From Owenia fusiformis (lineage: Eukaryota; Annelida; Polychaeta; Sabellida; Oweniidae): a stretch of 64,000 bases of DNA. The translations under genes were made by a program, and so were the position numbers. This document shows positions 14,509 through 60,051 of this stretch, piece by piece (position 1 is the stretch's first letter; each line of letters begins with the position of its first letter). The notes below the pieces were generated by a model. The model was not told where the DNA came from and did no database searches. It saw nothing but the letters and a program-made list of their open reading frames with translations. The stretch is from the NCBI GenBank assembly GCA_903813345.2, contig CAIIXF020000007.1, forward strand, positions 21,749,564 through 21,813,563, written 5' to 3'.

Positions 14509-17500
14509 ATGGAATTCAAACTGATTTGTACTTTTTTATTGATTTGGATTAATGATGGCATTATAGGTAAGAATATTAATTCAGTTGTACACCGTCAAAT
14601 AAAACAGAGAAACATTTTTGTACGATGTATTGTATATTTTATATTACTTTAGAATTTGATATGGTTATTTTATTGCAATGTTATTACACAAACTTTGATC
14701 TTAGTAGCAATACACCATTGGGTTGACCTTAATAAAAACGCACAAAATTGCTAGTACTTCATGAAATCGTCGCTTGATATGTGATTTTTAAGCTTTGACA
14801 CTTTTAAGACTTTTTTACGAGATTGCCGTTTCATTCTTTTCTAATATCTTTTTGTGGCCTCTTACGAAATAAGTTGAAAGGTTAAGGTCACTTTTATTAA
14901 GATCATTTTATTTTACTCAGGTTGTAGGGTCTTGAAATTAATGTGAGATCTTTTATAATCTTTATCATTTCAATAACAAAACTGTTTTGGAAAAGAAAAT
15001 CTTGTGAACTAAATCGAGACTGATTTCCAACATATGGAACATGTAGCGAGCTATTTCTATTACCAATGCTCGTATTTAATTACTTGAAACGTTCGTTGTA
15101 ATGCTGTAATTGTGGCAGTTTAATTGGGCCTGGAGTCATATTTGTATTATAGGTATCATAATAACTTTTATTACCATCAATTTTGATTGTTTTTGCTAAT
15201 ATGTTAATTTATGAGTATTGGTGCTAGGGATATACAATATATTCAGGTTCATATTTAGATGCAACGTTTAAACTGTTAGTTTTGAATATTACTAAAATCA
15301 TATAAATCTTCTAACTTCAAGTCAATTGTGAAATCAAACCATCATCACCTTTTATAGTGAAATGGAACCATTTGACAACTCTAATTATTCCAAATTTCCC
15401 ATAGACACCTAATGGTACGTTCACACCAACGGCGCTTTGATGGCGCTTTAAAGCGGCTTGTAAAGCGGCACCAAAGCGTAACAAAGCTTGATTAAAGCGT
15501 CGGGATCGTAATAGGTCGTAGAAAAGTTCGGAGTAAAGCGGGATATTCGGCAAGAGCGCCAAAAAATGTTAAACTGTTTAAAAATTTTGGGCGCTCTGTT
15601 ACGAATTGATTGAAGCGCCGAGAGCGTATCAAAGCTTAACAAACCGTAACAAAGCTCAACAAAGCTTGACTCAAAGCGTAGGAAAGCTTAACACAGCTTG
15701 GTTCAAAGCGGGGACCCCAGTCTATTCACGGTCTGTTACCACTTGACACGCTTCGTTAAGATATCTCAAGATTTGCTACGATCTGGCATGAAGATCTGAC
15801 ACGAGGTCAGACGCTTTCATCAATATCTGACACTCTTTGTTACACTTTCCTGAGGGACTCTCAAGCTTTCCAACGAATTGAGACGCTTTAATCAAGGATT
15901 GAAACGCTTTGCTAGGCTTTGTTACGCTTGAAAGTTTTCACACGCTATATCACGCCGTGCGACAAACGTCATGTCTTCTTCAGATAGGTCATGCTCTGGT
16001 CCATCTGGAATTTCTGGATCTCGTTGTTCTGCCATCGTGTTCTCGAGTCAAAGATGCAATGGTTTTATGGATCTACTGCATCTTTATGTAGTCATTGGAT
16101 CAAAAGCGGCATGAAATCGGCGATCTCGACATTTTCCAATGCGTGACAGAGCTTAACAGAGCGTAACAATGCACAACAGAGTTTTGCAATCGTATCAGAG
16201 CCTGATTTAAAGCGTCATAATCGCATCAAAGCGTAATAATGCTTATCAAAGCTTTTCAAAGCGTGATTTTAAGCGTAACAAAGCCTGATCAAAGCGGGAT
16301 CAAAGCGTGAGGAACCTTTTAGAGCTATGTTAAGCTTTCCTACGCTTTGGATCAAGTTTTCTGAGCTTTGTTACGGTTTGTTAAGCTTTGATACGCTCTC
16401 GGCGCTTAATCGATTCGTAACAGAGCGCCCAAAATGTTTTAAGAGTTTAAAATTTTTTGGCGCTCTTGCCGAATATCCCGTTTTACTCTGAGCTTTTCTA
16501 CGACCTATTACGACCCCGACGCTTTAATCAAACTTTGTTACGCTTTGGTGCCGCTTTACAAGCCGCTTTAAAGCGCCATCAAAGCGCCGTTGGTATGAAG
16601 AAAAATGACAAAAATGACGGCGCTTTGCTCGCCGATTTAAAGCGTGGCATTCGCCGTTGGTGTGAACGTACCTTAACCAAAACGTTTACTTTCCACATAC
16701 TATATTCTGCTGGTGTAATGTGTATATTACAGGATGTCCCGAGATAAAGACATACATTAATTCAAAGCAGCCTGGTGGTGTTGCCTTCAAACAATCTGCA
16801 TTCACCCAACTGAAATGCCAACAACTCTGTTTGGATTACGGCCCTTGTCAGGCCGCTGATTTCCACAAACAAACTAAAGAATGTCTCCTCCATATAGGAA
16901 CAACTGCAACCAGCCAAGAAAGCAATACTTGCTGCACACATTATAAGAAAATACCATGTAAAACAACTACGCCCCTTGTAACCCCAGACTGGAGCGCCAT
17001 TGGGTCCCAACATAGAATGAGAACTCATAGTATGCTTGATACTATATCAAGAATAAATGCTGATATTTCAGACGTTCAATTCATGAATCAAAGTTCTACA
17101 GAACCTGCTGTGTCTGACACTACAGTACAATATAATTTGACTCCTATGAGAACGACTGTTTCGAAAAGTCAAAGTGTTTTTGAAGAGGAGGTCACAACTG
17201 AGGCCATGACCATGCAATCGTCCCCGGCTACACCATTTCACACTACACATCCAGATAGGAGAACAACGCCGTTATCACCCATGGATAAGGATGAAGTAAA
17301 AATTACAGCAGATAGTGATAAAATTCAAGATAGTGAAAAAGTTCGGTTGAAGTTTGAAGAATCTGATGAAGATGTAATGCTATCAAGTGAAGATGATAAT
17401 GATGAATTAGATGGATTTCAAAATGGGCCTGAAGTTACTGATGTGAGCAAAGAAGGAACAATGGGGGAAAACTTAGAGGAAAGTCAAGGTAATACTACAA

Positions 17501-20500
17501 ATGACGGACTGGACAATGAGGAAGATCTAAAAGACGAGTCAGATGAAGAAACATTATCAGAAGAAGATGTCGAAGGAGAGAATACTAATTCAAATACAAG
17601 TGCTGGTGAGAATGAGGATGACTTTACATTTGATAAAGATATAGATGCAGATGACGCTGGTAATGTTGAAAAGGAGACTGGCTTAAAGATCACTACAGAT
17701 TTAGGTACCAGTACGTTTAAAAGTGAAGATGACATGTCATTTGATACAGCTATAGATGTGGACAACACCGGTGATATGTCCAAAGAAGCTAACACGGATG
17801 ACATCAAAATACCAAAAGAGAACGATGTAGCTATACCAAACATGGTACACTGCTATACAATGATTCAAAATGCTTCACAGCAGGGTGGTGATATATATGA
17901 AGGACACAATGAGGATGACTGTCTTGAGTTGTGCACAGATTCAGTAAACTGTGTCGCAGTTGATTTTAATAGACATTTTAATTCATGTTGGATTCATTCT
18001 TACACTAATGAAACTTCCCACGAAAAAGACGAACCTTGTTGCAATCATTTTAAGAAAGACAGCTGTGGCGACGATTCATGGTATAACCTTAATGATACAG
18101 AGAGTTACAAAATTGACTACATATCGAATAACAACACTGCAGATCCTGAAATGCACATTGAAGGTGAGACTTGTTGCTTCGTGTATCGTATTTTATCCTA
18201 TTCATTTCAATTCACAAATCGCACTTTATCGTATGATCTGTAAAATGAAGCCCTCTAATTGATCAGTTTTAGCAATACGGAAAATATTGGCACGGAGGAG
18301 ACAATCTCAGTAGCAATACAGAGAATAAAGAATATTTCCCAGGGAGTATCTCCAAAGTAAAAACGATAAAAATGTTATAGAATGATTTGAAGTGCAATAC
18401 AGGATATATTACATGCTCTCGATATTCTGTATTGTTCGTCTCGTGCCAATACAGAATTTCTCGAGCAGAATATACCCTGTATTGCACTTCCAATCATTCA
18501 ATAACTTATAGGCAAATATCTTAATTGCATTTAAATACCTATTTTCTCACATGAGTATGAGTTGTTATATCATTGTTGCAGTTGGATGTCTCCGTATCTA
18601 CCTAAACTCCAGTAAGATGGGTGGCGTCACTTATTCTGATCAGACGGCAGAGTCTTGTCAGGAGTTGTGCTTCAAGGGGGGTAACTGTGCCTCTGTAGAC
18701 TATGATCACGTGCACAAGTCATGCTGGATGCATCTAGAGGGAGAAGAAAAGAAATTACAGCGCAATCAATCGTGTTGTACTCATTATGAAAAGGATGTGT
18801 GCAACGGTTGGTCATTTTGTATTTGTAAAGATTTACAGATGGTAAATAGATTCCGAAAATGTTCCTGTTAGAAAAGTTAATGTTGAGCGATGATAAGTAA
18901 TTTTTACTAATTACTGCCCAAACTGAACTCTTTTCACATTTTCCAGTTGGAAGATTTTCAAAACAATATGACATTGTAATCATAATAACTTCATAAGCAT
19001 GACATAATGTAATAAAACCTTAAAGAACTAAAACCTTTACATATACATGATGTTGTCTGATGATGTTGCAGTTGATTTTCTTCTGAAGAATACCACAGAT
19101 AACTGTAGCGACAGTCTGACATTGTTCAAGCTTACACACGGTGTCAACCAACTTGGAGGTCGACTTGAAAAGGGTAAGTAAACATTGATTTGGAGCACGT
19201 TTCCAAATTGGCTGACCATCCTCCTATCACAGAGCTTCAAGATCCAGAATGTCTTCTTTCTATATTACCCGCTGGGGGAAAGAAGGAGGTACAGATTCTG
19301 GATACCCGTTTAGGAAGATGCTTGCTGACAGGAATTGTCTCTTTTCACATATAAAACGCATTATCAGAGCGCTGTTGACTATTTTGCCTGCATTTGATAT
19401 GTAGATTCTATTTCTAAATGCAGAATGTTACTAGATATAGTTGTCTGACTTGGCATAATTATATAGCATGTTTTGTCATGTTAGAAAGGCGTTTGTTGCA
19501 CGCCATCTTTTACATTTTTGTGATATTCATTTATTTGTTTTCTTTGTGTCGACTCCTATGTTTCTAATCAGTGTTTACCGTCAAGAAGTCATTACCATAA
19601 TCTCTTTTTTTGTGCATTTCTGGAGATGGATTTGTTGATAGAGAGGTTACACACATTTGATTTGGGAGAACGTGAACCTAAATTGTGCTATTTTTCACGG
19701 TTTCACGTACACATTCTTCAAAAAGTGCTCTCCCGAATTCTCTAATATTCAATAGATACGGAAATTGGCGCCCCAAACCCAAATTAACAAGAAATATGCG
19801 CCTAACTTGCTCGTGTCATTGTAAGTTCAAATTGGTCCTTTTATTCAACTGGGACGTAAGACCAGTTATTTGATAATTCACCTATAATTTAGATTTTGAG
19901 AAAAAGTTAAAGCAAATACAGTTTGTCGTTCACGAAAGGTATTCATTTTTGGTCGATTGGTTTAGCAACGAATGTTGTTACCTGTATAGATTGTAAGAGT
20001 GTCCAAACTGTAGGTTTAGGAATGGAAAATGTAATTTATACTGAAATCAACGGCGATAAGACTTTGTCGAAAAATATCTTCATTAAAATTGCGTTTTCAT
20101 CTCAAAAAACGTACGCATCTCATGATCTGATGAAAGATAATCTATATTTTACACTGAATCCTCTTAGGTACATACACAGAAGAGACGTGCAGGGATTTAT
20201 GTTTTGAAGATGAGGAATGTAAGGGTGTAGACTACAGTAACTGGGATAGCACATGTTGGACACATAACCACATGAATCCAGAGATGCTAAAGAAGAGCCC
20301 GTGTTGTGAACACTATGAGAAGATGAAGGTTTGCCAAGGTGAGCACAGAATGCGAGTGATGAAAGAATGGCTAGGGGAACTAGAAAGGAAGATGATGTGA
20401 GAGAAAAATAGAGAATATTGTTCAATTAGAAGACACGGTTCAAGTATAATATATAGATAAGCTCTTGCTATGCGAACTACAAGAACATGATTGTTTACCG

Positions 20501-26124: not shown

Positions 26125-27132
26125 TCATCTTTCAAGGATCGTCCAACGTGGCAGGAATACATCTTTTTCAACGAACGGTATTGAATTCCAGTGTCCATGC
26201 TTCAACCATTTTTCGTAATAAGTGGCTTGACCATTTGCTAAGTATGCACCCCACCAACCAAAAGTAGATCCGGCTGTTATGATAGAATGATTGCAGTGCG
26301 CAAGAATACTTAGATCTTGGCAGGCTGAATGGCCCTCCGAGTAAATAATGTCATATTTCGTAGAATTGATATTATTTTTACACCAAGCTATATCATCACT
26401 AACGACAACAAAAATAACATCTGTGAATGTACTCAGAAATGCAGACATAGCGCTGTTGATGTATTTCAATGTAATTCCATTGATGAGCGAACTATATTTT
26501 TTGACGAAATCAGTTCGCCTAACCTGAAGGCTAACATATGTCGAAGAACTATTTCCTTTCTTCTTGGAGCTGAGAAACTTGTTGGCAGCTATTATATGTT
26601 TTTGTCGAAAATTAAGCTCTTTTCGAACTATCTCATCAACGTGGCTGAAATACTTCCACGACTGCATATTTCCTTTCAATTTCTTAAATGTTCTACCAAT
26701 GTGAAAAGCCTTTTTCTCAAACTTCAAGTAAGCGGGACCGAAAGTCTCCTCTTCTTTGGCAAAGTAAACCTTCTGTCCGTCTGCAGTATTTTCGTCAGTG
26801 ATCCTGATGTCAAAACATTCACGAATAGGACTCCATCGTGCTAATCTAGGTGATAAACTATTTTTCTGCGCGATCCCAATTGTTGAAGCAAATTCAAAGA
26901 GCTGATTGCACAAGCGTCCATTTTGATCAAATGTCACTGGATAGTTGAAATTATCTTCCAAATATTTAAAAGTATTACGATCATATATAGCAATAGATTT
27001 GGCTAGTATATTACTTATTGTTTGATTAATTAATCCAGTTCTGTAAATCTGTGGTCGTAATGTTCTAATGTAAATTATTGATAGTCCTTCCACAAAAAGC
27101 AGAGCATAGAAAACATACATTACACGTTTCAT
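26125..27132 (-). CDS. GT11 alpha-1,2-fucosyltransferase-like protein (335 aa, intronless)
   Basis: A single uninterrupted frame encodes a type II Golgi membrane enzyme: a short cytoplasmic Met-Lys-Arg, a membrane anchor at about residues 4-22 (VMYVFYALLFVEGLSIIYI), a stem, then the catalytic domain. GT11 landmarks are NGRLCNQLFEFAS (family GRLGNQMFQYAS), VSLQVRRTDF (family VHVRRGDY) and ITAGSTFGWWGAYLA (family TFGWWAGWLA). The length is close to animal FUT1/2-type enzymes. Such enzymes transfer fucose from GDP-fucose to terminal galactose of glycans. Oddities are Gln where the HxRRxD motif usually has His, and Cys in GRLCNQ. The lack of introns among intron-rich neighbours could reflect retroposition, though many GT11 genes have a single coding exon. 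Confidence 0.92.
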   Translation of the reverse strand: MKRVMYVFYALLFVEGLSIIYIRTLRPQIYRTGLINQTISNILAKSIAIYDRNTFKYLEDNFNYPVTFDQNGRLCNQLFEFASTIGIAQKNSLSPRLARWSPIRECFDIRITDENTADGQKVYFAKEEETFGPAYLKFEKKAFHIGRTFKKLKGNMQSWKYFSHVDEIVRKELNFRQKHIIAANKFLSSKKKGNSSSTYVSLQVRRTDFVKKYSSLINGITLKYINSAMSAFLSTFTDVIFVVVSDDIAWCKNNINSTKYDIIYSEGHSACQDLSILAHCNHSIITAGSTFGWWGAYLANGQATYYEKWLKHGHWNSIPFVEKDVFLPRWTILER

Positions 27133-28654
27133 TTTACTTATATTTGTTTACACAGACCTGTAAAATTAAGTCAAATTTTCGATGATGTGTACAATTAGGG
27201 TTGCATTCTGAAAGTGAACGGTGCTAAAGTAAAATAAGTGGGCTTCGTATGATCACAATGATCGTAACAGGTTATCAGTTTGATTAGAAGTGTTTTTTCA
27301 TTTATTCATGATGTTTTTCTAATTTATAGCATTGCCTCCAGACAAATTGTAACCCAATTAAATTAACTTCAACAATCAAAATGTACCGGACGCATTATAA
27401 ATATCAGCTTTTGGTTAATATTAAGCATATGTTTAAATTTATAATTAATTAATGAACTACAGTATATCATTTTGGTTGCGAGCTTTTGAAAGCATGCGAT
27501 CAATAATTGTTTCACATCTTAATTCGTCATTGCTTCATCGACTCTTCGATGTACAAATGAAAAAAGACCAAATAATCTTTTGAATTCTCCAACTATCAGA
27601 TAGTTCGGAGGGTGGTTACTAGAATTTGAAGGGGTTGGACTTGTGATCAGTTGATGTAGTAACAATGTACTTATCTGAACTGATATGAACTTACTAAGGC
27701 CAACACAAAGTCATAGTTATGTTTAATTCGGCGCACCCATTATTTAGTTCAAAAGTTCCGTTAATTCAATACTTGGAGTGAAAGACCTCTGATTGGGAAT
27801 TTAATAAGCATTATACCGTAACTGGAAATTGCAGAATTAATTCCTTCAATCACCATCCGTATCCTCTGCCACCCACCTGTCCGCCTTGGGATTGGAACAA
27901 AAACATATATTCGTTATATGAACAGGTTCAGAGAGTTCAATGAACCGTGTGTGGTTTACTTTTCTCAAATCTGATTTTGTTTAAAAATTGTTTTGTTTTT
28001 TGGTGAAAAAATAAACATTTTGCCAAGAAAGAATTTGGTTTTGATGATAAAATTACATGTCCATGCTATGTTTTACAATAGATGAAGGGGTTATCAAATA
28101 AAAACAGATATAAGAGAAACATTAGCCTTTTATTTAGTGATAATCATATATAGTATCTAACGATATTTTGTGCTTTTGTTGATCAAAATGTGAACGTTGC
28201 ATTACATGGCAAAAAATCTATTACAGTACATTTGTTTCAGTGATATTTTCCCAAAATTGAAAGTTGCCTTTAAACTATGCCTAAACGTTGCTAATATTGA
28301 GAAAACCAATACATTTTCAAAAATTGTAATCAATGATATTGTTTGATCATAAGTTAACCAAATATTAGTTATATTGGCCTAAATTAGAGTGAGCATCCTT
28401 AAAACTTTGATTGCTTGATTATATTTTCATCCACTCCTAAACCCAAAAATTATGGAATGCAACTACATTCCTAGAGGCAGTTAATTAAAACCTATTCATT
28501 AACATTGGGATGAGTTAAGTACGTAGTGATGACCATTAGAGGTGTACTAGGTGATATCAGAGTGATATAACAAGAAGAGACAACAGTGGTTCATCCATTC
28601 GCAACATTCAACCGTGGAAGATGAGCTCTCTAACTTACCTTAGCTAAAGGGACA
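27133..28654. other. Intergenic between divergent genes
   Basis: Between the starts of the fucosyltransferase-like gene (minus) and the 603-aa membrane protein gene (plus). AT-rich; no ORF of note and no recognisable repeat. Confidence 0.5.
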
Positions 28655-45820: not shown

Positions 45821-48800
45821 CTAAGACTGTCCTCCATAGGTTGGGTTCTTGAACGTTGAAGTGGCTTGCTTGTAAATGGGATTTTCACCCTGAAAAATGG
45901 TTAAATATAACAAAATTCAATCAACTAGCTTAAAAAGATAACACAATCCATTCTATTAAGCATAATAAGAGAAACATATTAAGAAGAGAATCATTTAAAT
46001 TGTAACTAAACTGGTACATTTCATAAATAATAATTTCGAACTTACAGCATCCCATTTAGCATTCTGTTTTTCCTTTTCAAACTTGGCAAACTCTCGTCTG
46101 TCATTGATTGTTGTAAATAATTTCCATATAAGGAGAAGCGCAAGGCCTACTGCAACAATTCCACCAATTACAGCTAAGACTATAATTAATATATCAACTT
46201 CTTCGGGGCATTCTGGAAATAAACAAACATCAGATAAGTGGTCAGTATACATTTAAGTTTTTAGAGGTATATTAGAAGTATATTTACAGCCATAATAATT
46301 GTAAGCTTTGTAAATAAAGAAATGAATCTTGCTTAAAATGATGGTCTCTTTTCAACCATCACATTACATTCGAATCTTATATTTATACATGTAGATTAAT
46401 ATAAGATTAGATAGATCTAATCTAATCTAATCTTAGATTAGAGCATGTAACATTAATCATTACATAGTTTTTAGTGAACATTGAATTATGAACCCTCTTT
46501 TTCATTCTGATGTTTGACAGTATCATTCAGACTCTTGTTTTAACAGTAGGACACACATGGCTAGTTCAGGTTTCAGTCACTTCCTAACATGTTCAGTACT
46601 AGATTCTTCATATAATTCTTTCGTTGAGTAGATGGGTGATAATAGGCAATTGAAATTTCCACAAGTCTGAAATAGTTATGTGTAAAATTTAGCTAACCTT
46701 CTGCTCTACAGTACTTACTTTTAGTGTTCTGAGCAATGACATTTGGTCCATCATATTCATATGAGAAATAGAATATACAATCATCGTCATCCTTGAATTG
46801 ACAGGTGCGGTGATCAGCATCATCTACAATATAACAAAATTATAATGATCATAATGCACCAAGTGCTTGCTAATATTTATATTTATTCATTTAATTTGAT
46901 CAACATAGAGCATAATCAGAGCAAGTCACTACCCAGTTACTTTTTACATTATATCAATCACTTGACTCAATACTGGGCCATACTGGAAAAACATGGTTTA
47001 CACAGCTAAATTATCAAAGCGCCATTTTTTCAGTGAATCTTTGCAATGTTTATGGGTGCCTTCTATAAAGAATATAATTCCTGGATCATAAGTATAATGT
47101 ATTATTTACTGAGCTATGTGCATGAATTGAAATAGAAAAGACTACTAACCTGGGGCAGTTTCTTCGCCTCTTACATGTGTGCAGTTAGCATCGCACTCAT
47201 CCTGTGTCTTGTCTCCAGTGCCAAACAACTTGCACTGGACACATGCCTTATTCACTTCACATTTACCTGGGCATGTCTGAAATAAATTGTGTAAAAAATA
47301 TATATTGTAGATATCAATTGTGCAGTACACTGAGTAGTCTATGTTCCACTTCATGAGGGACAAAGATGATAAGTTATAAAGCTGTGTTTTTCTCATGTGT
47401 ATTCAACTTTATTCATCACTTTTTGTGCATAGATTAAGTAATTAAAAATCACCTTAAATCCCACTTAACAGACAAAAACTTTTTTTCAGTTCACTTTAAG
47501 AAACAAACAGAATCCATACAATGTAACCTACTTTAAATAATGGTCATATATGATAGGAATAACAATGTAAAATAAAACCATGGTCTTACTGGACAATCCT
47601 CACAGGTGACACCTCGATAGTTTTCCTTATTACATGTGCACCTGCCACATTCACACGTGCCTTTACCATTACAAATTTCCTGCAAGAACATCCATAAGAT
47701 TATTTTAAGAAACTTTAAAATACCAAGTACTATTTGGAAGGCAGTATCACATCGTTATCTATCATCCTGTTGAAGCTGGAAATATCAGAGACAAGCCGTT
47801 AACCTGTCATTTGATACAGATGAACACCAACCGCCAAACACTGACCACCAACCACTGATCTGACTGCTTGTGGTGGTGACATAAAAACGCTGTAATTTAT
47901 GAAATCATAGATGGCAGATACAAACTAAAGAAGATTCATTTTAATAATTTTTTTATTCTTATTCATAAAGTGAAAGAATTGCTTCAAATTAATATGTGTT
48001 TTTAATATTTACAATATATTTGACATACCCCATTTGAAGCTCTACACGTTTCATCACTAACTGCACATCCACAGTCTGAACCTTTGAAGCCATCATTGCA
48101 CATACATGTTCCACATTCACATCTGCCTTTCTCTTCCCCTGGAACAACATGTGTGAAAGATTAACATACTGCCCAAATATAACAGGAGACTTAGGAGAAT
48201 ATCGGAAAAACATAACTACAGCCTGTATAAAAACAACAAAAAATAATGATAAAGTTACTCAAATGGTGGTGAATGCAGAAGGTGTTGACAACTTCAAGTT
48301 ATTACTAATGAACATTGGAATTTAGCTCCATAGATGTTAATCATTATAATCATTCAAATGTAGAAACCAAATAAATATAGATGTCATTGTTTTATTGTTC
48401 CATTACTAATTGAATAGTTTACTATTTTTATTATATTTTTCTCTAGCCTATATTCTGAAATTTTCATATTCATACATGGCCAAACAGGTGCTAAAAGGAA
48501 GTTGATTATCCAGAGTAGAAATTCATAGCAACATAAATAATGAAAAATGAATAATTTCAGAAAAGTAAATCAAAAACATAAATAACATAAAAATAGAATA
48601 TATGTATATACAGTACTTGCCTCCACATAATTTTCCCTCGATGTCATAATCACATGAATAGTTATCACAATCACAGAAGTTGCCACTGTATTTCTCATTT
48701 GGCTTCAGTTTAGATCTTGGATTACAGTCACACTGGCCACAGATACATTGTCCTTTCCCCTCACACACTGAACTTGTGTTGGTTCTAGTAAACACACACG

Positions 48801-51800
48801 TTAATACAATATACAGGGTGGGCAAAAAATCAGAGTATTTTACTCAACTATACCAATTTACTGTACCGTAATTTACAAATCGTGATAAAAAATCAAGAAA
48901 AACTGAAATATATTGAATTTTATAGAGATCTACATATCTATCTTACATGAACTTTCATTGAATATTATAATAGAACTTCGTCAGTAAACAAACTAAAAAT
49001 ATTTTATCACATCTAGCAATCAATACAAAAAATATTCCAAGGTTACACCACAATTTCCATATACTTACTTCCTACATGCAGCATCATAGTCATCATTAGT
49101 AAGATCTGAACCATCACATTCACACTTCTTGCCATAGCGACCAGGGTTACAAGAACATGCGCCACACTCAAATGTACCACTAGAGTTGCAATGTACACTG
49201 TTAGGTACCTGTAATATTATAGTCATAGTTATTTTATGCATATTGTACATTATGACAAACATCTAGAAAGTTTTCTATGATTTGGGTTCAAAATCATTGA
49301 CCGCCATGATTAATCCCTTGAATACTTTGTAGCACATTGTAAAACACTGAATGTGCTTCTATAACAAAATGTTTAACTCGAACTGTTTACAGGTAGGAAC
49401 AATGAACTCTTTCGAGGATGAGTCTAGGCTATTGGAATTAAAAGGAGCAATATGCCAGAACATGATCTTGTTACCTTCATGTTGTATTCTTTAAAAAATG
49501 TTCATTGATTATTTAACTATATATTCAACTTTAAATATCTGCATTAACTTACCCCAACTCCTTCTATCTCACAGTCACATTCACACATTAGATCCAAGTC
49601 TATCTTCAACCTCTCATTAACACCCACTGGTGTAATATACAAAGACCTTTTCCATTCATTGCGATTTTTAGGACATCCATCCACATTGACGGTAACCTCA
49701 AACTCTACACTGCCACCTATCTTCAGACCCTCACATCTACTTCGAGTTCTTGTCTCGTTACTATAAAAAAAACATATATATATATAACATTTATTTGTTT
49801 GATTTCATGTAATATCATTTGTCAAGAGATTTGGATAAAAACAATTAATGATAAATCAAGTTAAACCGTATCCTTTAAAGTTTAAGTCCCTTTAATTTAA
49901 GTTCAACTTACTCAAAGCATTTTGATTTAAATGTGACAGTGACATTCTCTGCTGATTGTGTCTGAAGCTCAATACCAGAGGTGATTTTCTGCAATAAAAT
50001 AGAAACACATCAAATAACATGGTGACATAGGTGATGCATACATTTGGTAAACAAATCAATGTATTCAAAATAAACAAAAATTGGGCATACAATTTTTATG
50101 TTCTCAATTTAAAATTATATTTAACAAAGGTATTTTTTACTTACATTATAAAACATGTCGATTATATTTTACATAGGTACCTTTTTAACTTACATTATAA
50201 TTGTCTTTCACAAGATCGACAACGTTAGAAGAATCATTTGCCAATTCTCCAGCAGATGATCCCTTTATGACATCACTCAAGGATTTGTAGGTGTCAAGTA
50301 CAGTTTTAGTGACGGCAAAAATTACATTAACTTTCTTATCGTTGATCATGTTTGTAATCTGGCTCACTGAAGGATAATCCTGAAAGAGTAGAAAAAATAC
50401 TAATTGGTATCTTCATCCAAATTACACATTCTTGAAAAATAGCAGACCATCACTTTAACTCCAATGAAATGGTCAATGTTAAGATAATAGGTATGAAAAA
50501 ACATTAATAATTTCTTTAAAATATCTAATCCTTTTAACTGAGTTAAGACAGCGATCAAATCATTGTATAATGCATAGATGGACAATGGATAAATGGATTC
50601 ACTGATATATTATATCGAATAAAACTTGAGAAAACACCTACAATTTGTCGTAAATAAATAAACCAGGTCAATCAATTAATTAATAAAGTAAATAAAGTTT
50701 TTTGCAAGTTTTTTTAAAAAAAATTTTTTACATCATTGATTAAAGTCACTTACCAGCTCTAAACTTTTGTCATACTCTCCAGTGCTATCCAAGTGACATT
50801 GGCCATCATTAGGGGCAACTATACCTGCCAACTGTAAAACATGAATCCACATATATACATTACATTTTGTGGTAATCATACTTAATTTATATTGTTAAGT
50901 ATGCTTTAATTATCATTTTAGAGGTAGAAGTATTAAAGCTTTTGAAACAATCAGGTTGTATATTAAATACTTATGTATTTAGTAGTCAAATTAGGTTATA
51001 TTTTTTAGATTCTTTTAATATGTTACATAAGAACTGCTCTTTCACAAAAAAAGCTATTGTTGCTAAATATGAAGAGAAACAGAATTATGTACAATGATTA
51101 TATGTTAAAATCTCTATTAAATACATGTTATATCTAACATCACACAATTAAACATACATGTACATGCACAATAAATTGTTAGCAAAAACTGTAAAACATA
51201 TTCATGATTATTCATGGGATTTTCAAGTCACATTCCTTAACAGTTCATTAGTTTTTTCACAATTAATTCATTATTTAAGGAATAAAGACCGAGATTATAT
51301 GATTTATGACGTAATATATGACCGAAAATCTTATTCTGTCCATTGTTAAAAGACTGAAATTGCATAGCGATTGAGGTCTTTGGCAATGGCCAGAATAAAA
51401 TTTGAGGTCATATATTTGACATAAATCATAAAATCAAGGTCTTTGTTACAATTTTAATATGATAAGCAGACAAGAAACACAACTATTTGCTTTCATGAAT
51501 TTTAGCAGTCATACATACTCAAATATAGGCCACTAAATTAATTGTTCTTGCTATTGTGACGTCACGTATCATATTAGAATTCAGAATATTGTTTGTTGTT
51601 ACATTGTTAATTATTCAAGACATTCTTATGAATAAGACCATTTAGTATTTTCACAAAAACATGGTTTACAGAATACATACAACAACAAAAAACAACAACA
51701 TTTTTTTAAAAAGGGGAGACAAATATAATAAAATTTACTAAAGATGAATACTTAGGATATGTACATGCATAAACACTCAAAAAACAATTACACGTGTGTT

Positions 51801-54800
51801 TTTTCTAATTGTTAACTAACTCAAGTTGCTATAATGAAAAATGCAAAAATTTGAACCATGCTTAATTGAAATCTTTGCGCTTTATACTTTTCTGAACAAC
51901 CAACTGTGTTCACTATATGACAGGTTCCTCTACTGCGCAGTATTATATGTCCCATATACGGAATAAAATTCAAGTATTCAATTCAATGGCTCAAATCTAA
52001 AGTAAAATTGTTTCATAAAATGCCACGATATGAAAACATTGCCTCTACCATGCACTGAATTTGAACAACCTAATTCTAATGATTCAAATAAAATAGTTTG
52101 GCATTTCAAAAACACATTTCTTGAGGTAAGTTCTCAGAGCCAACTGATTTCTTTAACATACAAATAGCAAGGCAAGTGGGCCAAAATCAATTCCATTGCA
52201 CTGTACATGTAGAAAGTGAGTGACATTTTACGAAACAAGATAATGCCTATTATATGATGGTTATAACATTTCTATCCTTCTTTCTGATAATTCAATGGAA
52301 TGTGGACATATTAAATGAAAAAGTTTCATATGTTAGAGGAAATCAAACATGGTTGCCATTATAAATGAGGATGTTTTTCAGTTAGATTCAACTGTCGTTC
52401 ATAGTGTAACTATGACAATGTCATTGGGCAAAATCTACATTATTTTTGAGAAACATCCTACAGGTAAATGGGCTCCAAAAAGTATTATGCACCTACTACT
52501 CCATTGAATGTGTAAAAGTCTGTTAATTAACTAGCAAAATAATAGTTTCCAACTTTAAAAATAAGAACTCAAACATAGAGGCTTTTACATGCTAACCAAT
52601 GGGGTATTTAGGTTGCCTAACTTTTGGAGAGAGTGTATAATACAACAAACAAGATGCAATGCACACGTTCACTAAATACAATAATCTACTCTCAGACCTT
52701 TCCATCACCAGCATAGTGAAAACCTGCATCAGTAGAAAACAGCAGCATTTTTCTGGAGTTGGGTCTCCATCCAATCTTAGTCTGATGAAATATAAGATAT
52801 ACATGTTAACAAATGTTATATATCATTGTAAAGCAGGAACTTGACATTCCCAAACCATGGGAATATCATTTCCCCAATGAGAAGCCAAAATCAAGACTTT
52901 TCACAAACTTCTGCAACTTTTGCATTCATCTTATTATGAAAATTCTTGCTTTGACACTCACAATATATTTTTGTTTATTCAAATATTACCTTTCCATCTC
53001 CGGCATAATGAAACCCTGCGTCAGTTGAGAAAATAATAAGTTTTCTCGAGCTGGGACGCCAACCAATTTGAGTCTACAAGTATAGCATGCAATCTAAAAT
53101 CCCAAGTAATTGGTCTAATAACTTTTCCCTATCAGTGTCATTGTCAAGTGGTTTAAATGAATATTAGGAATCGAGAGCCATTTTTAAATACTGAAAAAAT
53201 TCTATTCCCAGTCAAAGCATTACTGAAAAAGTTTTATGTATCAAAAAATTATAGTTAACCTTAATTTAATATAAACATGTCTGAACATTCATTGTCATAG
53301 AAACTTTACAGTTAACTATTAGTATATTATCTGGTTTTGCTGAAAATCATAATGAATATAAAAATCTATTTAATCAATAATGAAAATATGTATTTGTAAA
53401 TAAATATCTATAAATGATTATTACACACTTCACACACCTAATTTTTATTTCTAAAATTAGTTATGTACCCTTTGTTTTGAATTCTCTTTATCATTACATT
53501 ATGTATAAATAGAAATGTAATCCCAATGGTAATTCAATAACAATCAAGGCATTTATTCAATGTATTGTATATTAAAATATAAAATGTAGAATACCTTCAC
53601 ATGCACATCACTGAATATATACACACATAATATTGCTATGCTTGACTCATTGTCTTACCTCACATGTGATGGTCTGCATGATGGCGTCAAAACCTCCCTC
53701 AGGGGAATCCAAGTTACCAGACACTTTAGCAGCTTTTACACGGCTCTACAAGGAAACAAGAGAAATTCTAAACTGTTTTGTCCTAGGTATTCAAAAATGC
53801 ATATAACACACACAGAGACATAAACCTGGGATAATTAACAGCATGAAATATGAAACAACTAAGAACTGTAAAACCATTACGAGTGGAATGCCCTTGGTTC
53901 CATGATAATGTTCAACTGAGGAGGTTTGATAAACATAATAAATCAATGGGTCAAATGACTGAAAAATGTTCATTTTACAAATAAAGGTGTTCAACTTGAC
54001 TGTTTTTACTGTATTAAATATCATTGAAGCAGAACATATAAATCTACCCAGCATGGCTTGATCATTATCATTTACTACCAAGATCACGATCACCTTTGAA
54101 AATAACATCAGACTGAACATTACCAATAACCCATAATAACCTGAAATAATCAAGACAATTTTAACGAAAGTTGTAATAATAACCTGAAATAATTAAAAAA
54201 ATTTAACGAAGGTTGTTCACTAGATCTAATTCTCCCTGAATGAACAAGCCTTATTTCAAAAGCTGATAAAGGCATTCAGTTCAATTTATTAAGAACTAGA
54301 TAAAGCGTGAATGACTCAGTTTAAGCTTTGATAACTTACTGTTTTGGAGTAAAATAAAAATCTCTCCCTTTTTCGACCAAACAGTAAGACACCATTTTTC
54401 ACACTAAATTTTACAACATTTGCCAAGTGGGTGATCAGTTAGGGGGTAAAATCATTTTAGGTTCTTATTAAGACTCCATTTCCCAGAACTCTGTTTAAGT
54501 TCAGAAGGGTTGGTGGTCTAGCTCATGTAAAATTTAGAGTAACACTTAATACAGGTAAATGAATTCCATATTTGCAGCCCATGATAGAGGGTCTGTGCAG
54601 TGTCACTTACTTCAAACTCTCGAGGGTCATCATCGAGTGGCAGCTGATTTTTAAAGCCATATGGGGACACACAATCCTCCCCTGCTTGACAGGGGTTTGC
54701 GAGCCTGTGAGAGGAATAGCATATTATTTTAATTAAGTTAAAACCAGGAACCCAGGTATTATCTAGCACAGCACTCAATATCATTATATTATCTAGAAGT

Positions 54801-57800
54801 TGATTTCTGGAAAGTACCCCATTTATGAGTTGTGAAAATCAAATTCATTCACAAATCTCAATCATAGGTATTTTCAAGAAATGCCCTTCATAGTAAAGAA
54901 ACAAGGCTAAAATTTAGCCATGTTTGGATTAGAGTAAAACATCAATCTAACACAAGTATAATATCATATCTATAAGCAAAGCAAGGTAGAGAGGATGGGG
55001 GTTTGTTAATTAGTGATGTGGTACATACATTAAAAGGAGAGAAACAAACTAAAATAAAACTGTGGCTTTATATATTGGGTAGGGAAGGCAAGGGGAAAAT
55101 GAGGGAACAGGTATGCAGAGTGATCTAACAAAAAGTTAAGTTAAACCTTTGAAACCTGGAGAAAAAAATAAGTTATCATCTAATAAAATACTCCAAAATA
55201 CATAACACAATTTGTGGAATTACACATTGTGTTTAATTTGGAGAAATTGGTGTTCTATATACATTAAAACAAATATTCCATTTTTCAGAACACCCTGCAT
55301 TTCCTACATACGTACATACCAAATTTTCATGGAAATCCATCTTTTAACTGAACATTCCCATTTTTTAAGGAAAGTCAGATAAAAATTCAGGAAATGCATG
55401 AAAAAGAGGCCTAGTCCATGGGTAAGGTTGTTATATTGTACATCTAGGGAAAACTTGCCTCAAACTCTTTCGGATCTGGCACAAGTGGAAGTTGATTTTT
55501 AAAGGCATATGCTGGTACACAGCCAGGGCATGGCTCTATGAGTCTACAGATGGATAACAAACAGAAGAATAACAAGAATGAAGAAAGAACTGGCATACAG
55601 TGAAAGTACTGTGCATGCATAGATCAGCTAAAATATTCATTCCAATAAAAAAATATTCACCCCCACATGCAGTTATTACAACTTGAACTTTAGAGATTTT
55701 TACAAGTAAGTATTGAAATGAAAATAGCACATGCAATTAAATTCACATGCAGAAATATAATGAAGTCCTACTTGAGTGGAACTTTGCAAAAGATGTGATT
55801 TCTAAAGTTCTACAAGAGACTATGGACTGAAAGGTCATGCAGAGAAATACAGGCTAGAATTATTTAACTGAAAATGAACTCAACGAAAAAAGAGTAATGT
55901 TGATATAATACTTGAAACTATTAAATTTATAATTATGTATAATACAACTTGTTTTCATTATAATGTCAATATAAGTCGAATAACAGTATTGAAATTAATT
56001 TCTTATAATAATGTTTTTATTAGATCAGCATAGTAGCAATTTGCTAATGCTTCACAATATCACTAATGACCAACATGATTAATTCAATATTAAAACAGTT
56101 ACAAGAGTATATAAACAGAGGAATACTAATGATAATAGAAGACTACTTATCTATAGTGATCATTCTATACAAATACATGTTATGTAAAATACCATACCTA
56201 AATGTTTTTATATTTGTAATGATATCAATTTTGAAAATATAAACTGTGGCCAAATGAATTAGTTCTTGGGCATCCTCTTGAAACTTAGCACATTGCCCAC
56301 CATAAACGCAGTAATAATTATCCATTCATAGTTTATCAAGGCTATTTGTGTTAAGTCGAGCAAAAGTAAAATGATTGCTGAAGACTTTCGCTCCAGAGAG
56401 TAAATGATTTTTCTTAATGGACATGTGTTACAGGACCATATAAGGTGCAATTAATTACTTCCTGTACTACATGACCATATATCACGCAATAACTTACTTC
56501 CTCGGCAGAGTGCTGACGTATGGCATTGCTTTCTTATCAACAAATGATCCAAACCCAATACGGAAATTGCTGGTGATGTTCTTCATTGAGTCAGCTGGAA
56601 TATAACATTAATGTAAAGATCATAATAAATATGTAAGACTTTCAAGTAAATATATAATAAATCAACTAAACAGGGATTTTAATATAGCAGACATATGCTT
56701 TATTATACACACAGTCATTAGGATTTACCATTTAGATTTTTGTAAGTTGACAAATTTTGGAAAAGCAACATGTGGAAGTGATGAATTTTATTCAATTTCA
56801 GTGATAGAGAGTTGATTGCACTACTCACTACCTCTTTCCAACTAACATACATGTGCTTTTAAGAAATCAAAACACACCATTTATATTTTCAGACAAGGGA
56901 CTGGTCATTTTCACTTACCTAATAATACTCCAAGGGCAGCTAACTTGGCCTTGTCATCTTTCATAGAGAATGACAGGTCCATAAGATAATACAAATCTAC
57001 TGGGTAGTTCTCAGCTTGCCTGAATACAGTTTTAAATGTATAAGGCTTGTCTGCAAATATAATTTTTTAATATGAGCACATTAGAGCCATGTCTAGGCTA
57101 ATAAGAATACATGAAGCATATAATGGGAAAAAATCACAGCAGCAAGTAGGCACAAACAAATGACAATGACAAGATTTACAAAAAAACTTCTAAAATGGCT
57201 GCCATGAAAAAAGATGGCCATCCAAACTTTTATCAGCTGCAGAACGTTGTCCCCTGCAACATGTATAAGAATTTGAAAAATTGTTATCCTGAAATGACAA
57301 TGACATAATTTTATCAAAAGAACCCAAAGTTAATCAAAAATTGGCACAACATATAGGGATACAGAAAATATTTCTTACTTGGTCTAAGTTTGATTTTGAT
57401 TTCCTGAGGTTGAAGCTGAACTGCATCGTCAGATCCTTCAGCATTTCTCACTTCATCGTTCTAAAAAATAACAACAGGTTAATTATCAAAACATATCTGA
57501 AGAAATATATATAGGCTTTTTCAAAACTACAAATATGACAGAGATTTCTTTCTTTTCTGATATTAATTCCTTGAATACCCAGGGCAAACGATATGTATAT
57601 CAGTCAGAGAATTTCTCACTAAAATGGCTCTCTACCTTTCGATCAATTTACACAAGTCATACATTAAAATTGGTGTATGTTCACTAATATCATCACATTT
57701 AACACCAAAGATGGTTTATGCAGTTACATTTATTAATAGTAAAATGGCAAAAAATTGGCAAAGAGTTAAAATGCTCTGGTATTGAACAGCTTAAAATAAA

Positions 57801-60051
57801 TATTGTATATAACTCATTTTGAACAGCATGTGGATTTTCTTGATGCTTCAGCAGTATTTTATTTTAAAATAAAAATATATGTGAATAAATAAAATTTGGA
57901 AACTTCAAAAATATCTACTAAAAGCTCAATAGCTTGGCTGTACACACCATTAGGTTATCACATCTAGAATTTCAATTAAAAGTACAGCATCACTGATTTG
58001 TAATAAACTGTTTATCGGGAAAGATGAATACAAGTGCTCAAGAAACCCATAAATATCACCCACCTTAACAAAACTCATGTCATGGTCTGGGTTGATTATG
58101 TTGCTATAGTCACATCCAACCTTGATCAGGTTCTCCACTTTATCACATCTTTCTTTGTTTCCTTCATCAAAATTCTGCAATACAAACACAATCAGTCAAT
58201 ATAATACAAAATAAGGTTCCAATCAGAGTTTGGATTAATGATCTGAACCAATAATTTTCATCATCATCAGTTTGACTCATAATTGAACACAACCACCACC
58301 AATTTTACAATAAAATTCGCCAACCAAAAGGCCATTCACCAATTCAGACAATTTCACTTATTGATAACATTTATGATGGATTTGATAGAATTTTCTCATT
58401 CCCCTTGATTACATGAAAATGATTGCAGACTATGGAGGAATGGAGGATCCAATCAGTACTAAAATTACAAAATCATATATTGTAGTCAGAGGGAGGAAAC
58501 GTTAGCAAATGGGTTTGAAGGTATATTATAGTCAGAAGGAGGAAATATTAGCCCATGGGATAAAGGGTATGTACTCACATCTTGCTTGCACCAACCACAC
58601 ACTCCTCCTGCTGCAACACATTCTCCACATGATGCCTTCTGGGAACAAGGGTTTACTGATAGTTCAGCTAAAGCTGCAATATATAAACATAATATAATTC
58701 TGGTATCAAACCCTGAGTTACCTTCTAGGATCAAGGGTTTACTGATAGTTCAGCTTTAGCTGCAATATATAAACATAATACAAGTCTGGTATCAAGCCCT
58801 GAGTTGCCTTCTAAGAACAAAGGTTTACTGATAGTTCAGCTATAGCTGCAATATATAAACATAAGTCTGGTATCAAGCCCTGAGTTGTCTTCTAGGAACA
58901 AGGGTTTACTGATAGTTCAGCTATAGCTGCAATATATAAACATAATATAAGTCTGGTATCAAGCCCTGAGTTGCCTTATGAGATCAGGAGTTTAATGATA
59001 ATTCAGCTATAGCTGCAATATATAAACATAATACAAGTCTGGTATCAAACCCTGAGTTGCCTTATGGGATCATGAGTTTACTGATAGTTCAGCTATAGCT
59101 GCAATATATAAACATAATATAAGTCTGGTATCAAGCCCTGAGTTGCCTTATGGGATCATGAGTTTACTGATAGTTCAGCTATAGCTGCAATATATAAACA
59201 CAATATAAGTATGGTATCAAGCCCTGAGTTGCCTTATGGGATCATGAGTTTACTGATAGTTCAGCTATAGCTGCAATATATAAACATAATATAAGTCTGG
59301 TATCAAGCGCGAGTTGCCTTCTGGGAACAAGGGTTTACAGATAGTTCAGCTATAGCGGCAATATATAAACATAATATAAGTATGGTATCAAGCGCGAGTT
59401 GCCTTCTGGGAACAAGGGTTTACAGATAGTTCAGCTATAGCTGCAATATATAAACATAATATAAGTCTGGCATCAAGCGCGAGTTGCCTTCTGGGAACAA
59501 GGGTTTACAGATAGTTCAGCTATAGCTGCAATATATAAACATAATACAAGAATGATATCAAGCCCGAGTTGCCTTCTGGGAACAAGGGTTTACTGATAGT
59601 TCAGCTATAGCTGCAATATATAAACATAATATAAGTCTGATATCAAGCCCTGAGTTGACTTATGGGAACATGAATACAAATGAAAGCATAGCTGTATATT
59701 ACAATATCCTTGTCATCTCTCTTCAACATATATTGTAGCTTTATAGTTCTATTTTAATCATACAGAGTTCAAGTCTACATATACTTATAACAGGACTCAC
59801 AACTTGTATTATCTGAGAATCATCTTCCACATCTAATGATTGATTAATTTTATATAGGCAACCATCCAGACATTTGCATATATTTTTAGTGTACTTTTTT
59901 AAACACAGTTTTCGAGGCAATCTTAATACTCATTTTGCTCTCAGAATAAATTCAGTCAAACTACATATGAAATACAGTACTTACTTTGAGCATAAATGAA
60001 AGTGACTGTAATGAGTGCATATAAGCCTATAAGGAGAATTCGGACCTTCAT
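45821..60051 (-). CDS. Integrin beta subunit with two pairs of alternative exons (about 789 aa)
   Basis: Coding exons in order (exon 1 is an inferred untranslated exon): 60051-59985, 58673-58579, 58174-58064, 57460-57379, 57050-56919, 56594-56498, [55543-55459 or 54704-54611], 53745-53659, [53073-52990 or 52781-52698], 50831-50754, 50379-50194, 49988-49912, 49760-49553, 49208-49069, 48784-48621, 48138-48029, 47679-47590, 47276-47150, 46823-46719, 46212-46046, 45889-45821. With 7B this is 2370 bases, in frame. Domains: signal peptide, PSI Cys-rich domain, beta-I domain with [21 protein letters not shown] (Asp about 143), four Cys-rich EGF-like units, beta-tail, membrane helix (about 719-744), and a tail with [22 protein letters not shown] and NPTY, the talin/kindlin-binding motifs. 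It pairs with an alpha subunit as a matrix receptor. An acceptor at 60064 just before the ATG shows an untranslated first exon further upstream. Confidence 0.96.
46396..46443. repeat. Hairpin of gattagat words
   Basis: In the intron before the integrin transmembrane exon, taatataagattagatagat faces atctaatctaatcttagatt, a self-complementary stretch of simple-sequence origin. Confidence 0.6.
48812..48840. mobile_element. Solo TACAGGGTGG terminus
   Basis: The sequence tacagggtgggcaaaaaat matches the ends of the foldback elements elsewhere in the window, but no matching opposite end was found nearby. It begins 27 bases upstream (in transcript sense) of the integrin exon 15 acceptor. Confidence 0.55.
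52698..52781 (-). CDS. Integrin alternative exon 9B (84 bases)
   Basis: Encodes [20 protein letters not shown] followed by FHYAGDGK. The acceptor is tcatcag and the donor aag|gtctga. It differs from exon 9A at about five of 28 residues (Gln/Lys, Ser/Asn, Leu/Met and two Ile/Leu). It has the same length and phase 0 at both ends, so it is an exact swap for 9A; inclusion of both would add 28 residues without a frameshift. Confidence 0.93.
52990..53073 (-). CDS. Integrin alternative exon 9A (84 bases)
   Basis: Encodes [20 protein letters not shown] followed by FHYAGDGK. The donor is aag|gtaata. It lies 208 bases upstream of 9B in transcript order. The segment corresponds to the beta-I region ending [14 protein letters not shown] in human beta-1. 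Confidence 0.93.
54611..54704 (-). CDS. Integrin alternative exon 7B (94 bases), long Cys-loop
   Basis: Encodes [20 protein letters not shown] and then [11 protein letters not shown], with the donor gaa|gtaagt. The loop between the two Cys has five residues (QAGED), similar to the six-residue CTSEQNC loop of human beta-1. This is the specificity-determining loop of the beta-I domain. Confidence 0.93.
55459..55543 (-). CDS. Integrin alternative exon 7A (85 bases), short Cys-loop, GC donor
   Basis: Encodes [20 protein letters not shown] and then VPDPKEFE. Aligned with 7B, only two residues (Pro-Gly) separate the two Cys. The donor is non-canonical, gag|gcaagt, of the GC-AG class. The acceptor is ctgtag. 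Confidence 0.9.
58482..58572. repeat. Two-unit direct repeat of about 46 bases
   Basis: gtagtcagagggaggaaacg and tagtcagaaggaggaaatat begin two adjacent similar units, directly after the PSI-exon donor in transcript order. Confidence 0.65.
58651..59675. repeat. 86-base minisatellite carrying a splice acceptor and exon start
   Basis: About twelve units with starts near 58651, 58737, 58823, 58904, 58990, 59076, 59162, 59248, 59333, 59418, 59503 and 59588. On the minus strand each unit reads tgtttatatattgcag, the 3' splice site of the integrin PSI exon, then about 40 bases of that exon. Only the unit at 58651 leads into the real exon. The unit near 59354 has lost the AG (gccgc instead of gcagc). 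Confidence 0.95.

Follow-up and report, generated by a model that had tools for sequence, protein, structure and literature searches.

In Drosophila, transcripts of the myospheroid gene carry one of two fourth exons of 29 residues, betaPS4A or betaPS4B, and the accessible part of PMC9218073 ties this region to the ligand preference of human integrins and reports homologous regions in Ceratitis and other insects. For these other insects it cites a 2004 paper with the C8-C9 loop in its title, which is also cited for that loop in the accessible part of PMC2397394; from exon size, region and this title we infer that the insect pair lies at C8-C9. Here we describe a comparable pair, exons 7A and 7B, in an integrin beta gene of Owenia fusiformis, which lies on the minus strand of a 64,000-nucleotide (nt) stretch of contig CAIIXF020000007.1 (the window; assembly GCA_903813345.2, forward-strand positions 21,749,564 to 21,813,563). 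Judged from its sequence, the alternative exon pair is real and well formed and belongs to a kind already known in insects; it is accompanied by a second pair and by a strong candidate regulator. The initial annotation of the window had regarded alternative exons at this loop as unknown in other animals. That was wrong, as the insect betaPS4A/4B exons lie in the ligand-preference region, and on this precedent we rejected the idea that the pair is of a wholly new kind (PMC9218073, accessible part). The gene and the exons around the pair are as follows.

45821 to 60051, minus strand: integrin beta coding span, 21 exon positions with positions 7 and 9 doubled (assembly, Pfam domains)
56498 to 56594, minus strand: constitutive exon 6, which encodes the first half of the specificity-determining loop and ends in phase 2 (exon assembly)
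55459 to 55543, minus strand: exon 7A, 85 nt, with a GC-AG donor and the short loop CPGC (boundaries, frame, comparison with 7B)
54611 to 54704, minus strand: exon 7B, 94 nt, with a GT donor and a CQAGEDC loop as long as that of human beta-1 (boundaries, alignment, comparison with 7A)
53659 to 53745, minus strand: exon 8, 87 nt, NLDSPEGG segment aligned to beta-3 215-222 (assembly, beta-3 alignment)

The coding span (60051 to 45821) was assembled from 23 exons, which occupy the 21 exon positions. In all four combinations of 7A or 7B with the doubled exons 9A or 9B the frame is open from the signal peptide to the tail, giving 786 or 789 residues, with NPIY and NPTY in the tail. Two proteins were searched against Pfam, the 789-residue 7B-9A form and the first 393 residues of the 7A-9B form. 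The former matched PF00362 (1e-108), PF17205, PF18372, PF23105, PF07965 and PF08725, which comprise PSI, VWA, I-EGF, integrin EGF, tail and cytoplasmic domains, and the latter matched PF00362 (VWA) and PF17205 (PSI). By this domain content, a VWA/I-like domain flanked by PSI, I-EGF, tail and cytoplasmic domains, the predicted product is an integrin beta subunit.

Exons 7A and 7B had been proposed as homologous, mutually exclusive exons, and our check of boundaries and frames bore out their sizes, peptides and phases. The peptides, of 29 letters for 7A and 32 for 7B, contain a two-residue CPGC and a five-residue CQAGEDC loop, respectively, as described. Both exons have an AG acceptor; the donor of 7B is GAA/GTAAGT and that of 7A is GAG/GCAAGT (a GC-AG intron). 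The reading frame is open across the 6-7A-8 and 6-7B-8 junctions. When exon 7 is skipped (6-8), the third codon past the junction codon is a stop; when both copies are included (6-7A-7B-8), a stop falls within 7B, and an alternative GT four bases past the 7A donor breaks the frame too. Translation of the junctions thus agrees with the claim that skipping or doubling of these exons, both 1 mod 3, is not readable, and the frame test together with alignments to human beta chains supports exclusive-by-frame alternatives at the C8-C9 segment of the specificity-determining loop. Exon 7 is entered in phase 2 and left in phase 0, so a copy of it can be read through only if its length is 1 mod 3. The frame lock, though real, is thus implied by exon phase and adds no evidence of its own. 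In sequence, 7A and 7B have the features of a mutually exclusive tandem pair: adjacent homologous exons with their own splice sites and matching phases, and a break in frame if both or neither are used.

The two exons are 58% identical over 31 columns, and their local alignment score of 87 compares with 19.9 +/- 4.1 (maximum 43) in 5000 shuffles. Over 28 aligned codons, a count that leaves out the three 7B codons facing a gap in 7A, the nonsynonymous divergence (dN) was 0.27 and the synonymous divergence (dS) 1.90 (dN/dS about 0.14), and 15 of the 28 base differences fell at third codon positions. The low ratio and the high dS indicate that the duplication is old and that both copies were kept as protein code by purifying selection. 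A tblastn search of the window with 7A and 7B recovered each with the other, plus weak matches elsewhere (E 0.45 for 7A, 0.008 for 7B), and gave no credible third copy of exon 7. The GAG/GCAAGT donor is found at two positions of the gene, 55458 after 7A and 48620 after exon 15 (minus strand). We had considered the GC donor as a mark of regulation; this idea is weakened because constitutive exon 15 carries the identical donor, and at 7A the GC may simply be neutral.

To place the exchanged segment in the protein, we used alignments to human structures. In the human beta-1 alignment, 20 residues of the Owenia chain stand opposite 20 of the human chain. In the table for beta-3 (1jv2 chain B), query residues 8-53 pair with 183-228, 46 residues each. 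In beta-3 numbering the second Cys is therefore 184 and exon 7 ends at 204; NLDSPE, from exon 8, lies at 215-220. The accessible parts of two papers give the specificity-determining loop of beta-3 as 159-188 (PMC3827234) and describe its small disulfide segment as contributing to differences in ligand binding (PMC1538996). Taken with these bounds, the beta-3 alignment shows that exon 7 exchanges the disulfide (C8-C9) half of the loop and the stretch that follows it. By alignment, 7A and 7B of the O. fusiformis gene thus span the C8-C9 disulfide loop, as is expected of a pair of the betaPS4A/4B type. In beta-3 the metal ligands near this segment, which we take to be 158, 215-220 and 251, correspond to positions in exons 6 and 8 and in each copy of exon 9. 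Because exon 7 holds none of them, the metal sites should stay intact when it is swapped.

The intron upstream of 7A contains a cluster of Rbfox-type sites, and a single site lies near exon 9A.

55614 to 55841, minus strand: five TGCATG, the Rbfox-type UGCAUG (motif count, shuffles)
53086 to 53091, minus strand: one TGCATG, 18 nt ahead of the 3' splice site of 9A (motif scan)

On the gene strand, the distances from the five sites to the 3' splice site of 7A downstream of them are 76, 128, 192, 208 and 298 nt. Dinucleotide shuffles of these 300 nt contained 0.21 TGCATG on average and none of 5000 reached five; moreover, no four-letter hexamer of any kind occurred five times in 1000 shuffles. 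When the 2752-nt region from exon 6 to exon 8 was shuffled (400 times), the best count of TGCATG in 300 nt was two. Among the 23 exons, TGCATG was present within 300 nt upstream only at 7A (five), 9A (one) and 15 (one, inside exon 14), and within 300 nt downstream only at exon 8 (one). A repeat search showed that the stretch upstream of 7A is not a tandem array of a TGCATG unit; the only tandem repeat there, a two-copy 15-nt unit at 55546-55575, does not contain the motif. Exon 7A thus has, in its sequence, the upstream enrichment of UGCAUG that is expected of an Rbfox-repressed exon.

We also found a gene of the Rbfox type in the genome. Three exon pieces of an RNA recognition motif (RRM), at C9:4004839-4007447, are 58-79% identical to the query, and the other nine of the 12 matches listed lie at other, weaker places. 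The RRM exon encoding GFGFVTF had its best match in RBFOX1 structures (1.5e-13). This exon is 93 nt long, with two TGCATG just upstream and one across its donor. Mammalian Rbfox genes are autoregulated through a similar arrangement of sites. By this likeness, the sites at the RRM exon look like autoregulation and suggest that the animal uses the rule of upstream repression.

A second tandem pair, 9A and 9B, lies one exon downstream of 7A/7B and encodes a segment of the same I-like domain.

52990 to 53073, minus strand: exon 9A, 84 nt, first member of the second tandem pair (boundaries, dN/dS, assembly)
52698 to 52781, minus strand: exon 9B, 84 nt, second member, with a weak donor, AAG/GTCTGA, the boundary falling after AAG (boundaries, dN/dS, assembly)

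The two are 82% identical, with a dN of 0.13 and a dS of 1.57, which indicates that this duplication is old as well and that all four exon copies were retained for their coding sequence. As each is 84 nt long, 9A and 9B are not frame-locked. With two exon pairs, the gene could give up to four isoforms of the beta chain.

From these data we propose the following switch. Both 7A and 7B would be used in RNA as alternatives, one per transcript, which we regard as very probable. Rbfox would bind the UGCAUG cluster upstream of 7A and repress this exon, leaving 7B, and 7A would be taken when Rbfox is absent; given that both exons are used as alternatives, control of 7A by Rbfox is reasonably likely. 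Cells rich in Rbfox, by analogy neurons and muscle, would then make the long-loop 7B form and other cells the 7A form, and transcripts in which exon 7 is skipped or doubled would be lost to nonsense-mediated decay. The single TGCATG at the 9A acceptor may couple 9A/9B to the same switch. As with the insect betaPS4A/4B region, the switch would be expected to alter activation, the preferred ligand and/or the choice of alpha partner. Taken as a whole, with the alternative exons and the Rbfox step included, this explanation is the one we favor, and we consider it somewhat likely to be correct.

Several points weigh against it. The basis is the DNA of one genome, the direction of Rbfox action is taken by analogy, and the coupling of 9A depends on one site and is weak. 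The Fox-1_C Pfam model had no match in the genome. In addition, six motif patterns were scanned before TGCATG was chosen, and on either strand of the 64-kb window nine other four-letter hexamers also reach five copies within 300 nt; these hexamers mirror each other on the two strands, and several lie in or beside tandem repeats. It is possible, if doubtful, that 7A and 7B are alternatives chosen by other means (exonic silencers, other RNA-binding proteins or RNA structure) and that the TGCATG cluster is incidental: the other clustered hexamers and the small set of patterns examined would allow this, and regulation itself is a prediction. However, five TGCATG were never reached in the 5000 shuffles, and the cluster is found at 7A only. 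A choice by RNA structure is opposed by the intron-intron duplexes, which were no better than shuffles. Docking duplexes of this type were likewise unsupported as the cause of exclusion, since 3, 3 and 18 of 20 shuffles equalled or exceeded them in stability, and steric exclusion was rejected because the introns between 7A and 7B (754 nt) and between 9A and 9B (208 nt) are too long by the usual length rule.

The other alternatives concern the exons themselves. If only one exon were really used, it would most likely be the beta-1-like 7B, with 7A a duplicate on its way out. The 7A form is less similar to human beta-1 (131.7 bits compared to 149.3 bits for the 7B form), 7A was the weakest of seven matches when the genome was searched with a query containing 7B (E 0.036), and this weak match and its GC donor would suit a weaker or declining exon. 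Moreover, the dN/dS ratios are rough, because each dS was computed from some 19 synonymous sites and approaches saturation. Nevertheless, a ratio of about 0.14 at a dS near 1.9 speaks against loss, 7A has no stop and retains its Cys pair, acceptor and phase, and exon 15 shares its donor sequence; we therefore consider a dying 7A improbable. That the pair mainly sets the amount of protein via nonsense-mediated decay, with the loop difference secondary, is suggested by the early stop in both wrong combinations. These stops, however, follow from exon phase alone, and the strong constraint at the protein level on both copies argues for their use in protein, which makes such a role very unlikely. 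Finally, an assembly artefact that placed two alleles or gene copies in tandem is hardly credible: a single assembly was available, and nothing else was found in its favor, whereas a dS near 1.9 is far above allelic distance, the flanking exons are single-copy and no other beta locus was found. Use of 7A and 7B as alternatives, with Rbfox as the candidate regulator, thus remains the preferred explanation.

We searched the genome for other integrin beta loci, whether paralogs or a retrocopy, with PF00362, PF08725 and two protein queries, and found none, within the limited reach of an exon-by-exon search in which even 7A came up no better than E 0.036. This suggests a single integrin beta gene in the genome; in oyster, three beta genes are reported in the accessible part of PMC7390872. 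If the exons are used as predicted, exchange of a short loop would let a single gene adjust integrin ligand or activation behaviour to the cell type, and with the second pair up to four beta chains are possible. 7A and 7B would then be a natural counterpart of the loop-swap experiments on human integrins that are cited in the accessible part of PMC2397394. The TGCATG cluster names a specific and easily tested candidate regulator, and the presence of the pair in a probable non-arthropod makes it possible to test one ancient pair against repeated invention at the same exon. A broader proposal, which we hold only tentatively and think unlikely, is that an apparently single beta gene gives up to four chains via one coordinated Rbfox switch of both pairs in the ligand-binding I-like domain (7A with 9A versus 7B with 9B), substituting for the beta paralogs that other animals have, and that the loop pair has persisted since, or arose in parallel to, betaPS4A/4B.

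Elsewhere in the gene, the neighbourhood of the PSI exon (58579-58673) contains an 86-bp tandem repeat of 12.2 copies (58633-59670). Because the repeat unit spans the 3' splice site of this exon and its first ~40 nt, the preceding intron contains an array in which nine or more copies resemble an acceptor. Outside the gene, a long single open reading frame (ORF) at 26128-27147 (minus strand) resembles an alpha-1,2-fucosyltransferase by eye, and ORFs at 16666-18240 and 18512-18868 (plus strand) contain repeated Cys-rich modules, PAN/apple-like by eye, which are accompanied by an acidic Ser/Thr-rich stretch.

Finally, we compared the locus with known systems. Tandem exon substitution also occurs in the vertebrate integrin genes ITGA6 and ITGA7, whose tandem duplicated exon events are listed in the accessible part of PMC9741552; theirs affects the alpha beta-propeller, whereas here it is the beta I-like domain that is changed. 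The X1/X2 exons of ITGA6 and ITGA7 tune laminin binding. FGFR2 (IIIb/IIIc) and C. elegans egl-15 (5A/5B) have exclusive exons under Rbfox control, in which upstream binding represses and ligand choice changes. The likeness to our gene is UGCAUG near one of two exclusive exons, although these are receptors of another family and Rbfox control is predicted here. The same disulfide loop varies between beta paralogs (zebrafish beta1-3 CFPSDC versus CTSEQNC), for which the accessible part of PMC1538996 predicts altered ligand and alpha association; there the variants are separate genes, while here they are alternative exons. No animal relatives were confirmed among 237 and 37 pattern matches in genome and viral contig collections, and a literature search, with most subscription papers beyond its reach, found no such pair reported outside insects. 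The arthropod R&R cuticle family (PF00379) had no match in the genome in a profile search run with no positive control. A search for the mollusc hemocyanin family, likewise run with no positive control, was also negative, as was one for COX1. The closest system is betaPS4A/betaPS4B: by description, both loci have two alternative exons in the ligand-preference region of a beta subunit, of 29 residues in the insect and of 28 and 31 codons plus one base here. In contrast to the insect gene, the Owenia gene has a second pair one exon downstream and Rbfox-type sites clustered at one exon, in a genome with no detectable arthropod cuticle family. Thus, what is new here is the second tandem pair, the TGCATG cluster and the Rbfox-type gene, together with a loop pair that is probably outside the arthropods.

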